NCBI RefSeq assembly: GCF_021026375.1
Contig: NZ_JAJNDB010000003.1
Coordinates: forward strand, 496,001 to 560,000
Length of the DNA: 64,000 nt
Origin: Actinomycetospora endophytica
GTDB lineage: Bacteria > Actinomycetota > Actinomycetes > Mycobacteriales > Pseudonocardiaceae
Direction of reading: 5' to 3'
The stretch's first letter is position 1. Each line of letters begins with the position of its first letter. The notes under the pieces are model-generated. The model did no database searches, was not told the origin of the DNA, and was given only the letters and a program-made list of their open reading frames with translations. A program made the translations under genes and the position numbers. This document shows positions 24,913-48,432 of this stretch, piece after piece.

Positions 24913-24985
24913 GGCCCGCCGCGGTGATGACGGCGCGGGTCGCCGGGCCGTCATCGCCGCGCCGTCACCTCCGGGCCGCCGGCGA

Positions 24986-43852: not shown

Positions 43853-43938
43853 TCGCGGCGAACGTGATCGGCGGGCTGGTCGCCCTGGCCCTGCTGATCT
43901 ACCTCGTCGTCGCCCTCGTCCGTCCCGAGAGGTTCTGA
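43849..43938 (+). CDS. kdpF: K+-transporting ATPase small subunit KdpF
   Basis: A 29-residue single-helix subunit that stabilises the KdpABC complex in the membrane. It has one hydrophobic helix (LVALALLIYLVVALV) followed by the typical RPERF end. GTG 43849 overlaps the preceding small frame as GTGA, and its TGA overlaps the kdpA ATG as TGATG. Confidence 0.88.
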   Translation: MIAANVIGGLVALALLIYLVVALVRPERF

Positions 43939-45602
43939 TGGGCGACACGGCCGCAGGGCTGTTGCAGCTCGTCGCGCTCCTGCTCGCGCTGGCCGCGGTC
44001 TGGCGGCCCCTGGGCGACTGGATGGCCCGCGTCTACACCTCGCCGACCCACGGGCGCGGCGAGCGCGTGATCTACCGGCTCACCGGGATCGACCCGGACT
44101 CCGACCAGCGGGCCGGTACCTACGCGGTGTCGATCCTGGCGTTCTCGCTGCTCGGGATCGTCGTGCTCTACCTGGTCCAGCGCCTGCAGGGGGTGCTCGG
44201 GTTCGACCAGGGCCACGGCGCGGTCGACCCCGGGGTCGCGTTCAACACCGCGATCTCGTTCGTCACCAACACGAACTGGCAGTCCTACGTCCCTGAGACG
44301 ACCATGGGCGCGGTCACCCAGATGATCGGGCTGACCGTCCAGAACTTCGTCTCGGCCGCGGTCGGCATGGCCGTGGCGGTGGCACTGATCCGCGGGTTCG
44401 TCCGGTCGCGCTCGGGTGGTCGCATCGGCAACGCCTGGGTCGACGTGGTCCGCGGCTGCACGCGGATCCTGCTGCCGCTCGCCGCCGTCGTCGCGATCGT
44501 CCTGCTCGCGCTCGGCGTCGTGATGAGCCTGCACGCCGGCGCCGACGTCGTCGGGGTCGACGGCCGGGCGAGCACGATCGCCCTCGCGCCGGCCGCGTCC
44601 CAGGAGGCGATCAAGGAGCTGGGCACCAACGGCGGCGGCGTCTTCAACGCCAACTCGGCCCACCCCTTCGAGAACCCGGACGCCGTCACGAACTGGATCG
44701 AGATCTTCGCGCTGCTGGTGATCCCGGTGTCCCTGACCCGCACGTTCGGCCGCATGGTCGGCAACCAGCGCCAGGGCGTGGCGCTGCTGGGCGTCATGGC
44801 CACGCTGTGGGGCGCCATGCTCGCGATCATCTGGACGGCGGAGGCGCACGCCACCGGCCCGGCCGCGGTGGCCGCCGGCGCGAACCTCGAGGGCAAGGAG
44901 GTCCGCTTCGGGATCCCCTCGTCGGCGCTGTTCGCGAACTCCACGACCAGCACCTCGACCGGCGCGGTGAACTCGCTGCACGACAGCTACTCGGCGTTCG
45001 GCGGCGGCGGGACGTTGCTGAACATGCTGTTCAGCGAGATGACGCCGGGCGGCGTCGGGACGGGCCTCTACAGCATCCTCGTGGTCGCCGTCGTCGCGGT
45101 GTTCCTCGCCGGTCTGATGGTCGGGCGCACCCCCGAGTACCTCGGCAAGAAGCTCGGCCGCCGCGAGGTGACGTGCGCCGTCGTCGTCGTGCTGGCCATG
45201 CCCGCCGTCGTGCTGCTCGGCACCGGCCTGGCGATCGCGCTGCCCTCGACCGGTGGCGCCCTCGGCAACTCCGGGCCCCACGGGCTCTCCGAGGTCCTCT
45301 ACGCGTTCGCCTCCGCGGCGAACAACAACGGCTCGGCGTTCGCCGGGCTGACCGTGACCGGCCCGTTCTTCCAGACCGCCCTGGGCGTGGCGATGCTGAT
45401 CGGCCGCTTCCTGCCGATCGTGGCCGTCCTCGCCCTCGCCGGACTCCTCGCCCGGCAGCCCCGGGTCGAGCCCGGCGCCGGGACGCTGGCCACGGACAAG
45501 CCGCTGTTCTCGGTGCTCGTGGTCGGGACGATCGTCCTGGTCGCCGCGATCACCTTCCTCCCCGCACTCGCGCTCAGCCCCATCGCGGAGGGCCTGTCAT
45601 GA
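43938..45602 (+). CDS. kdpA: K+-transporting ATPase subunit A
   Basis: KdpA is the channel-like subunit that binds and conducts potassium. The 554-residue protein has about 10 TMs and the four pore-loop motifs: [27 protein letters not shown], the [13 protein letters not shown] loop region and [10 protein letters not shown]. The ATG overlaps kdpF; the stop overlaps kdpB as ATGA. Length is normal for the family. Confidence 0.97.
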
Positions 45603-47755
45603 CCGTCCGGCACCCCGAGACCATGCGCCCCGTCGACCGGCCGCCACGGGAGGCGCAGGAGGTCCACGCCGAACGTTCCGGCCGGGTGGGCGCCGGCGCG
45701 TTCCGGCCCGCGCAGCTGCTCGAGTCCCTGCCCGAGGCGCTGCGCAAGCTCGATCCGCGCGTCCAGATCCGCAACCCGGTGATGTTCGTGGTGTGGGTCG
45801 GGTCGGTCGTGGTCACGGTGTCGGCGGTGGTGTCGCCGAGCGTGTTCGCCTGGCTGATCGCGGTGTGGCTGTGGTTCACCGTGGTGTTCGCGAACCTCGC
45901 CGAGGCCGTCGCCGAGGGCCGCGGCCGCGCACAGGCCGACGCCCTGCGGCGCACCCGGACCGACACCGTGGCGCGGCGGCTGCGTCCCGGCGGCACGGTC
46001 GAGGAGGTCCCCGCGACGGCGCTGCGCCTCGACGACCGGGTGGTCGTCGAGGCCGGGCAGACGATCCCCGGCGACGGCGAGATCGTCGACGGCATCGCGA
46101 CCGTGGACGAGTCGGCGATCACCGGCGAGTCCGCCCCGGTGGTCCGCGAGTCCGGCGGCGACTTCTCGTCGGTCACCGGGGGCACGACGGTGCTCTCCGA
46201 TCGCATCGTCGTGCGGATCACCACGCGGCCCGGCGAGTCCTTCGTCGACCGGATGATCGCCCTCGTCGAGGGTGCGCAGCGGCAGAAGACCCCCAACGAG
46301 ATCGCGCTGACGATCCTGCTGGCGGCGCTGACGATCGTGTTCCTGCTCGCCGTGGTCACGCTCCAGCCCATGGCCGGCTACTCCGGGGCCCAGCAGTCGC
46401 TCGTGGTCCTCGTGGCCCTGCTGGTGTGCCTGATCCCGACCACCATCGGTGCGCTGCTCTCCGCGATCGGGATCGCCGGGATGGACCGGTTGGTGCAGCG
46501 CAACGTCCTGGCGACGTCGGGGCGGGCGGTCGAGGCGGCCGGCGACGTCTCGACGCTGCTGCTCGACAAGACCGGCACCATCACCTACGGCAACCGGCGG
46601 GCGACGGCGCTGCACGCGCTGCCCGGCGTCGGGGAGGCAGAGCTCGCGCGGCTGGCCCGGTTGTCCAGCCTCGCCGACAGCACGCCCGAGGGCCGCTCGA
46701 TCGTCGAGCTGTGCGCGAGCGGATTCGGGCTGGCGCCGGAGGCGTCGGCGGAGGAGGCGCGGGCGGAGTTCGTGCCGTTCTCGGCGACCACCCGCATGTC
46801 CGGGGTGGACGTGACCGGTCCCGACGGCAGCGTCGAGTCGATTCGCAAGGGCGCGGTCGCGTCGGTGCTCGACTGGCTCGACGCCTGCGGTTCCGGCGAC
46901 GACCGGGCCCGGGCCCACATCGAGGCGGTCGCCCAGGAGATCAGCTCCCGGGGCGGGACTCCTTTGGCCTGCGGCCATGTGAACGGATTTGGTCGCCAGG
47001 ACGACCAATTCCATTCACATGGCGGAGCCATCGAGCTCTCCGACGTCGTCAAACCCGGCATCGCCGCGCGCTTCGCGGAGCTGCGCACGATGGGGATCCG
47101 CACCGTGATGATCACGGGCGACAACCCGGTGACCGCCCGGGCCATCGCCGCCGAGTCCGGCGTCGACGACGTCCTGGCCGAGGCGACCCCCGAGGACAAG
47201 CTCGCCCTGATCCGCCAGGAGCAGTCGGGCGGGCGGCTGGTGGCCATGACCGGGGACGGCACCAACGACGCGCCCGCGCTGGCCCAGGCCGACGTGGGCG
47301 TGGCCATGAACTCCGGCACCACCGCCGCCAAGGAGGCCGGCAACATGGTCGACCTCGACTCCGACCCCACCAAGCTCATCGGGGTGGTCGAGATCGGCAA
47401 GCAGATGCTGGTGACCCGCGGGGCGCTGACCACGTTCTCGGTGGCCAACGACCTGGCGAAGTACTTCGCGATCCTGCCCGCCATGTTCCTGGTGATCTTC
47501 CCGCAGCTCGCCGCGCTCAACGTCATGCACCTGGCGACGCCGGAGTCGGCGATCCTGTCCGCGGTCATCTTCAACGCGCTGATCATCGTCGCGCTCATCC
47601 CGCTGGCCCTGCGCGGAGTCCGGTTCCGGCCGATGGGCTCCGACGCCATGCTGCGACGCAACCTGCTGGTCTACGGGCTCGGCGGCGTCGTCGTCCCCTT
47701 CGTCGGCATCTATCTCATCGACCTCGTCGTCCGGTTCATCCCGGGGATCGGCTGA
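45599..47755 (+). CDS. kdpB: K+-transporting P-type ATPase subunit B, with in-frame palindromic insert
   Basis: KdpB is the ATP-hydrolysing subunit: phosphorylation motif DKTGT (Asp323), DESAITGES in the actuator domain, and [10 protein letters not shown] near the hinge. 718 residues. Between GGTPL and SDVVKPG the family normally has about 14 residues forming strands of the VV.EG..VLGVI type. Here there are 24, of which residues 459-475 are read from a 50-bp inverted repeat (46974-47023). The frame is kept, but a conserved strand is replaced, so activity may be affected. The ATG overlaps kdpA (ATGA), and kdpC follows 2 nt later. Confidence 0.96.
46974..47023. repeat. 50-bp inverted repeat inside kdpB, possible palindromic mobile element
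   Basis: Two 22-bp arms, 46974-46995 and 47002-47023, are complementary at 20 of 22 positions around the loop CCAGGA. The outer ten bases (GCCATGTGAA / TTCACATGGC) and inner seven (TTGGTCG / CGACCAA) are perfect. GC is about 54% against roughly 70% or more around it. It lies where KdpB homologues have a conserved strand and does not interrupt the frame. No second copy was seen in this window. Confidence 0.8.
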
Positions 47756-47757
47756 TC

Positions 47758-48432
47758 ATGTCCACGCTCACCGAACACACCACCGACGAGGCCACCCCCG
47801 CCCACCCGGTGACGACGTCCGCGCTGCGGCGCCAGGCCGTCGCGGCCCTGCGGCTGGTCGTCGTCCTCACCGTCCTGCTGGGCGTGATCTACCCGCTCGG
47901 GGTCTGGGGCGTCAGCCGCGTCCCGGGGCTGCACCACCAGGCCGAGGGCTCGCTCACCCCGACCGGGTCGTCGCTCATCGGGATCGACCCGGTGCCGGCG
48001 AACGCCGCGGCCGATCCGTGGTTCCACACCCGCCCCTCGGCCTCCGCGCCGCAGGACGCCACCGCGGGGCTGGGACCGGCCGACCCGGGCACCTCCGGCG
48101 GGTCGAACAAGGCGGCCGACTCCCACGACCTGGTCACGGCCGTCGGCGAGCGCCGCACCGCGATCGCCGCCCGCGAGGGTGTCGACCCGGCCGCGGTCCC
48201 GACGGACGCCGTGACGGCCTCGGGCTCGGGCCTCGACCCCGACATCAGCCCGGCCTACGCCGCCCTGCAGGTCTCCCGGGTCGCCCGGGTGACCGGCCTC
48301 GGGCCGGACCGGGTCCGGGTCCTCGTCGCCGAGGCCACCCGGGGCCGCTCGCTCGGGTTCCTCGGCGAGCCGACGGTGAACGTGTCCGAGCTCGACGCCC
48401 TCGTCCACGCCACCGCGCCGGGCGCCCGGTGA
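47758..48432 (+). CDS. kdpC: K+-transporting ATPase subunit C
   Basis: KdpC is a single-TM chaperone-like subunit needed for high nucleotide affinity. 224 residues: a cytoplasmic start, one TM (about 28-50, LVVVLTVLLGVIYPLGVWG), then a periplasmic domain with GSLIG-like SSLIGI, FHTRPSA, GSGLDPDISP and a late LGFLGEPTVNVSELD ending. ATG 47758 is 2 nt after the kdpB stop. The next gene is on the opposite strand, so kdpDE are absent here. Confidence 0.95.
   Translation: MSTLTEHTTDEATPAHPVTTSALRRQAVAALRLVVVLTVLLGVIYPLGVWGVSRVPGLHHQAEGSLTPTGSSLIGIDPVPANAAADPWFHTRPSASAPQDATAGLGPADPGTSGGSNKAADSHDLVTAVGERRTAIAAREGVDPAAVPTDAVTASGSGLDPDISPAYAALQVSRVARVTGLGPDRVRVLVAEATRGRSLGFLGEPTVNVSELDALVHATAPGAR

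Follow-up and report, generated by a model that had tools for sequence, protein, structure and literature searches.

What is a nearly perfect palindrome of 50 bp doing within the reading frame of an ion-pump ATPase, and how could it have come to lie there? The question is raised by kdpB of Actinomycetospora endophytica, in the 64,000-nucleotide window analysed here (contig NZ_JAJNDB010000003.1, positions 496,001 to 560,000; coordinates below are those of the window). A preliminary description had likened the segment at 46974-47023 to the exonic palindromic repeats of Rickettsia.

A palindrome within the kdpB frame

The host gene (45599-47755, plus strand, gene call) encodes a protein with Pfam E1-E2_ATPase and Hydrolase matches that aligns with E. 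coli KdpB (6hra_B, E = 5.4e-242), the match spanning residues 33-711. Upstream on the same strand lies a gene (43938-45602, ORF and gene call) that we take to be kdpA from its translation and the operon order, and downstream one (47758-48432, plus strand, gene call) that is presumably kdpC from the operon order. The palindrome in kdpB is real and beyond chance. The segment 46974-47023 reads GC, CATGTGAACGGATTTGGTCG, the loop CCAGGA, CGACCAATTCCATTCACATG and GC, and its two 22-bp arms (46974-46995 and 47002-47023, plus strand) are complementary at 20 of 22 positions, so that the arms and loop originally described are reproduced from the letters of the window. Its GC content is low as had been noted, at 54% against 71.8% across kdpB, and the frame is kept: the core (46976-47021, dialect T1 as defined below) equals kdpB codons 460-475, exactly in frame, and the frame is open throughout. 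The core is matched on both strands by our model R1 (alignment A1; E = 8.4e-16 and 1.1e-13, for a copy that is itself part of the model) and encloses a 40-bp unit running from GTG to CAC (46979-47018). Outer mini-hairpins can be drawn by eye on the plus strand to the left (GGCC-TGC-GGCC, 46966-46976, its last base common to the core) and to the right (GGC-GGA-GCC, 47021-47029, with a stem of only 3); in the minimum-energy folds of the strand the two flanks pair mutually instead. The strong hairpin anticipated for the mRNA is borne out by computation, with fold z-scores of -6.1 as DNA and -6.3 as RNA and none of 200 shuffles folding as well. Two more palindromes, each with 17 of 20 pairs and outside the GTG...CAC family, lie at 24919 and 35516 of the window.

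On E. coli KdpB the position of the insert corresponds to the turn of VVVEGSRVLG, which we take to be part of the nucleotide-binding domain. Modelling had been suggested as a way of asking whether the insert sits in a tolerant loop. In the AlphaFold2 model (mean pLDDT 73, pTM 0.60, 28 sequences) strands 454-462 and 476-484 are connected by the insert, with pLDDT below 50 at residues 465-471, and the insert is predicted to occupy a disordered loop between the two strands. The model thus departs from the original proposal that a conserved strand had been replaced; it is the turn between two strands that is predicted to be lengthened.

A dispersed repeat and its dialects

The kdpB palindrome is one copy of a dispersed repeat, whose form here we call dialect T1. 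A 121-base piece around it gave 65 BLAST matches in its own genome (G000, both orientations counted), and the arm pattern ATGTGARYGRATNTGGTCG, with at most 2 mismatches, occurs 64 times forward and 61 times reverse; read backwards, the pattern occurs 0 and 1 times. Most of the 100 arm places listed, of these 125, have a partner 25 bases away, from which we estimate about 62 complete T1 palindromes in the genome. Copies inside one genome have a long sequence in common and not shape alone. The search for further copies recommended in the preliminary description thus found many.

Among 41 genomes, T1 is abundant in three of the 18 of the genus (38 matches in G000, 40 in its nearest relative G010 and 12 in G014), gives one to four matches each in G011, G002, G017 and G021, and gives none in the remaining 34. 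The forms found in the kdpB genes of G011 (T2) and G004 (T3) are dispersed likewise, with 74, 45 and 43 matches for T2 in G011, G002 and G017 and 65, 53 and 51 for T3 in G004, G012 and G002 (both strands counted). Forty-three hand-chosen copies of six dialects, trimmed so that GTG begins at column 4, align without gaps over 46 columns with invariant GTG at 4-6 and CAC at 41-43. Of the 21 stem pairs 18 have changed on both sides, with 177 double-changed cells against 62.6 when shuffled, and 92.0% of cells pair, against 73.6% when shuffled and 26-44% when slid. Judged by these alignments the dialects belong to a wider superfamily with a common 40-bp GTG...CAC palindrome and many interior forms. 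The superfamily model matches all 18 genomes of the genus (110-150 matches each on both strands, at most the best 150 candidates being scored per genome). Under stricter filters it matches 18 of 150 genomes of the order, comprising our own, six of a second genus (9-40 each) and eleven others (1-3 each). The second genus, which is of the same taxonomic family as the host, carries many copies: of its loci L275-L280, five of six read CTCGTGAGTG...CTCACGAG, again 40 bp from GTG to CAC (by eye).

A search for GTG...CAC palindromes of 40 bp in which 15 or more of the 18 positions pair returned 6 copies from a 200-kb sample of G000 and 11 from one of equal size from G003, all intergenic, and none in the reversed sequence or in any of three shuffles; extrapolated from these two samples, a genome would hold some 200-340 copies. 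Strong palindromes lacking GTG...CAC ends, sorted by eye, make up 4 of 9 in the G000 sample (among them L294, L295 and L297) and 7 of 17 in that of G003 (among them L299-L301, L303 and L306), with 1 strong palindrome in a shuffled 200 kb. No element was matched by Rfam at gathering score among 13 loci, and matches in the 64-kb window fell far below gathering scores. A 5_ureB_sRNA match just above cut-off lies at L262:1-227, about 1.3 kb from a G003 copy. The T1 consensus had no match in phage, plasmid and viral collections and two second-genus dialects none in the plasmid collection, searches in which 46-base queries detect close copies only; the T1 and T2 arm patterns, with the same reach, had none in viral contigs. 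Among the titles and abstract openings listed, whose coverage mostly excludes subscription papers, we found none describing a GTG...CAC family.

Copies at gene 3' ends

The placement of the repeats was examined with an in-house codon-usage gene caller. For 43 of the roughly 62 T1 copies of G000, in 40 stretches, 23 lie in convergent intergenic gaps, 15 in tandem ones and 1 in a divergent one, and the other 4 are intragenic. High-scoring copies of the other genomes are distributed similarly (14 convergent, 6 tandem and 1 inside a gene among 21 in G010; 14, 6 and 0 among 20 in G011; 10, 9 and 2 among 21 in G012 and G002). A gene 3' end falls within 40 bases of 38 of 43 copies in G000, 20 of 21 in G010, 20 of 20 in G011 and 18 of 21 in G012/G002. 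Random positions drawn from these stretches come that close in 10-13% of cases (11% for the T1 copies of G000), and 84-88% of them fall inside genes. The element itself often ends the gene, its TGA at core position 7 being the stop codon of 34 of the 61 gene ends facing T1 in G000 and of 17 of 34, 8 of 34 and 8 of 27 in G010, G011 and G012/G002. No T run is seen by eye in the flanks shown, though the hairpin is present.

T1 and T2 copies usually carry one or two outer mini-hairpins of variable stem. Hairpins with a stem of at least 4 flank 39 of 43 copies in G000, 20 of 21 in G010 and 17 of 20 in G011 on one side or both, and 1 of 21 T3 copies, where chance gives 8-10% per side. That outer hairpins were pre-existing targets seems unlikely, because the elements at L011/L236 differ in their outer hairpins between species and only the one T3 copy has any. 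L032/L250 points the other way, G010 having the right hairpin GGCGTTCGCC at a site that lacks the element, so that such a role may still apply.

Copies within protein-coding genes

Besides kdpB, T1 lies inside genes whose products, identified by Pfam and given presumptive finer names, are an HrpB-like helicase, a CydDC-like ABC transporter and a biotin carboxylase, in each case, as in kdpB, in the frame CAT GTG..., giving the peptides HVSGCGRLDDHIHSP, HVNGFGRSDDHIRSH and HVNGSGRLDDEIRSH, respectively. T3 copies lie inside a glycosyltransferase 9 (HVSELRGYSPEVRSR) and a GntR/aminotransferase protein (HVSELRGHSPEVRSH), and a further copy lies inside a G005 protein that we take from its sequence to be adenylation-domain-like (HVSGIRGHDREFRSH). 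At L273 of G002 a copy forms a C-terminal tail in the same frame. Every internal copy whose frame was checked has offset 0; the other stop-free frame of T1 was seen only as a C-terminal tail in L027. Most internal copies checked encode an HV(N/S)...S(H/R/P) peptide, from which the kdpB copies of G004, G006 and G013 deviate.

A survey of these sites matched 17 of 18 genomes of the genus (17 rows for HrpB, 17 for CydDC and 10 for the carboxylase), the weaker matches being possible paralogs. All three T1 sites are common to G000, G010 and G014, with 17, 15 and 13 of 17 pairs at HrpB, 14, 13 and 15 at CydDC and 14, 15 and 11 at the carboxylase, in that order. Rows without the element themselves score 10-14 of 17, and the weaker copies are therefore recognised by their peptide, such as VNQSGRRGDHIRSHGG in G014. 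We infer that exonic copies may decay in such a way that the peptide remains after pairing is lost. At the CydDC site G015 has an unlike palindrome (16 of 17 pairs). CydDC loops of similar length and weak pairing (L330, L331, L333 and L334 of G007, G003, G001 and G016) could be remnants of an old insertion.

The kdpB loop across the genus

kdpB was found in 15 genomes of the genus, 3 of the 18 yielding none. The closest matches to kdpB and the kdpB tree point to the Pseudonocardiaceae as the family of the host. A stretch around GGTPL...SDVVKPG comprises 53 residues in G000. It is shorter by 10 (43 residues) in G005, G002, G009 and G012, by 6 (47) in each of the five group-C genomes and by 5 (48) in G010. 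The addition of about ten residues given in the preliminary description therefore stands against the first four and falls to five or six against the others. Comparison of KdpB with relatives had also been proposed there: 10 of the 15 genes, that of the nearest relative G010 included, have no GTG...CAC palindrome. The other five do (G000, G004, G006, G011 and G013, with 15, 15, 13, 18 and 17 of 18 paired positions), all in frame and no two alike, those of G004 and G006 being related in sequence. The edges of the insertions, judged by eye, are unequal between carriers, and short loops occur in 4 of 8 group-B genomes. On the kdpB tree the five carriers need 4 changes, of which well-supported branches force 2, and shuffled labels average 4.4; these counts are compatible both with several gains and with one gain followed by losses and rewriting. 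The G010 loop (L139), though it holds no family palindrome, has by eye a short GC-rich inverted repeat, CCGCGGCGC...GCGCCGCGG.

Orthologous sites in the nearest relative

When 43 T1 sites of G000 were followed into G010, 22 were found to hold T1, 18 were without it and 3 orthologs were not found (the pairing of L041 is ambiguous between L230 and L181). At three of the 18 T1-free sites G010 has a different palindrome (L011/L236, L042/L241 and L047/L234). As to alignment, four of the 18 are covered on one flank only (L014, L021, L025 and L045), and long unlike stretches separate the flanks at L018, L028_1991 and L037 (about 220 bases in the last); all the others, kdpB among them, have both flanks close by. 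The one-flank alignments and long unlike stretches mean that clean empty sites number fewer than 18. Length differences at T1-free sites vary and flanks are about 80-94% identical, with edges too diverged for a target-site duplication to be read. The empty and type-switched sites nonetheless lead us to infer that the palindromes may be mobile.

Where T1 is retained, orthologous copies are 84.0% identical, as compared with 84.0% within G010, 81.5% within G000 and 80.4% for non-orthologous pairs. Orthologous copies are thus no more alike than copies within G010, suggesting that simple copying followed by neutral decay does not fully explain them. Among their paired positions 343 are unchanged, 66 have changed on one side and 31 on both; the expectation for double changes is 9.3, and 25 of the 31 are compensatory. 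Judged from these pairs, sites persist while both arms change in step above chance.

Discussion

We consider it probable that the kdpB insert belongs to a dispersed family of short palindromic repeats whose behaviour resembles that of REPs and Rickettsia palindromic elements. The original likening to an exonic repeat of the Rickettsia type gains support from the copies elsewhere in the genome, the relatives without the palindrome, the in-frame copies in other genes and the predicted loop. Beyond that description go the majority at gene 3' ends, the species-specific dialects and the different palindromes at the kdpB loop of four other species. Under the reading we prefer, some enzyme would insert a symmetric hairpin and copies would spread, and occupied sites would later shift towards the dialect of the genome that holds them. 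At gene ends, copies may be tolerated or even useful because they supply stop codons and a strong two-way hairpin, and inside genes only those that fall in exposed loops and use the stop-free frame would persist. The kdpB copy would lengthen a beta-hairpin turn by 5-10 residues compared with relatives; translating ribosomes would be expected to open the mRNA hairpin, so that the potassium pump should still work.

A search for the Y1/RAYT domain (PF01797) found none in the 18 genomes of the genus, our own included, and was positive in 5 of 14 control genomes. No long autonomous element with the same ends was seen among the 100 of 125 arm places listed. A 990-bp gene at L027:948-2037 lies between two diverged T1 copies, an arrangement repeated in G010 (L183); we considered this gene as a mobiliser, but its sole Pfam match is AbiEi_4, just below cut-off (24.2 against 25 bits). 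Tentatively, and as the less probable case, a single enzyme might recognise 40-bp GTG...CAC palindromes and both insert and rewrite them, each species converging on its own dialect at the same sites, whether within genes or at their ends. If true, this would be a site-keeping palindrome system distinct from both RAYT-REPIN and the classical MITE, whose decaying exonic copies would leave new protein loops behind.

Other readings account for parts of these data. The palindromes could be two-way terminators or protectors of mRNA 3' ends that evolve in place and do not move, the kdpB copy being an accident. Their strong enrichment near gene 3' ends and in convergent gaps, and the compensatory upkeep of stems (25 of 31 double changes against 9.3 double expected), fit such a role, yet copies in one genome share long sequence and not merely shape, orthologous sites exist without a copy, six genes besides kdpB have exonic copies and no T run was seen by eye beside the copies shown; we judge this reading improbable. 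Still less probable, to the point of being very doubtful, is a REPIN-type element moved by a RAYT or other IS200/IS605 Y1 transposase. A symmetric palindrome, location at gene 3' ends and exonic copies are features of REPs as well (accessible parts of PMC3733652), but PF01797 is absent from the 18 genomes and present in 5 of 14 controls, GTAG has no fixed place, CGTC occurs only inside the T1/T2 core, and the stem of about 20 bp exceeds the 5-13 and 8-9 bp of the two REP groups treated there; the missing domain in particular leaves the REPIN mechanism without support.

For kdpB alone, one ancestral insertion may have been inherited, lost often and overwritten by each genome's dialect, a history compatible with the reading we prefer. 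Use of the same loop in five genomes, concerted change at other shared sites and the mere 2 changes forced by the starred branches of the tree all agree with it; the 4 changes required for five carriers, the short loops in half of the eight group-B genomes together with the palindrome-free loop of G010, and the variation by eye of insertion edges among carriers do not. On balance we hold a single insertion to be unlikely, though with an appreciable chance. That the segment is ordinary kdpB sequence, palindromic by accident, agrees with the intact frame and is refuted by the many further copies in the genome and by the 10 of 15 kdpB genes of the genus without such a palindrome; we give it practically no credence.

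Several known systems invite comparison. MITEs are short, symmetric, non-coding and dispersed; the family is likewise short, symmetric and dispersed, but among the arm places listed no parent IS is seen and most arms are paired 25 bp apart. The DNA uptake sequence of Neisseriaceae, a unit of 10-12 bp, has species dialects and forms inverted pairs at gene ends. The family resembles it in both dialects and gene-end inverted pairs and differs in having fewer copies and a 40-bp unit. REPs and REPINs share with the family high copy number, a hairpin, convergent and tandem intergenic sites and some intragenic ones (accessible parts of PMC3733652, whose main text does not contain the word actinobacteria), and our copies do lie downstream of genes in convergent or tandem arrangement. 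The family differs by its longer and nearly perfect stem, by having no fixed GTAG or terminal CGTC tag (CGTC stands at core position 18 of many T1 and T2 copies and not of T3) and by the lack of any Y1/RAYT gene found, and we do not class it as REP because neither the tag nor the transposase was found. The CGTC group of REPs is similar in having no dedicated transposase; this group and the shorter, CGTC-type RPE-4 and RPE-6 are described in the accessible parts of the same paper. With Rickettsia palindromic elements the family shares many palindromic copies, in-frame insertions in unrelated protein genes and a similar peptide from one frame (accessible parts of PMC10969869 and PMC3733652). Here seven kinds of gene, kdpB included, carry in-frame copies, and across hosts the copies checked keep the frame and most of them a similar peptide. 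The family differs in its 46-bp core (about 72-86 bp with outer hairpins, against the roughly 150 bp given in the accessible part of PMC10969869), its GC-rich actinobacterial host, the gene 3'-end position of most copies examined, which supply stops, and its different dialects at the same sites in different species. We do not class it as RPE because the quoted length of about 150 bp does not fit, a separation drawn from published descriptions. By analogy, the comparison supports the view that the palindromes would work much as Rickettsia palindromic elements and REPs do.

The family, for which we found no mobiliser, has built-in stop codons that at gene ends serve both directions. Rickettsia is the best-known source of exonic palindromic repeats, and a large family in GC-rich actinobacteria appears to do something very similar. 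It offers in-frame copies in seven kinds of protein gene and five unlike palindromes at one loop of an ion-pump ATPase, and the old sites, where the peptide may have remained after pairing was lost, form part of the case for repeats becoming protein loops. With exonic copies, unlike kdpB palindromes and decayed sites in hand, how repeats may become new protein loops can now be tested.
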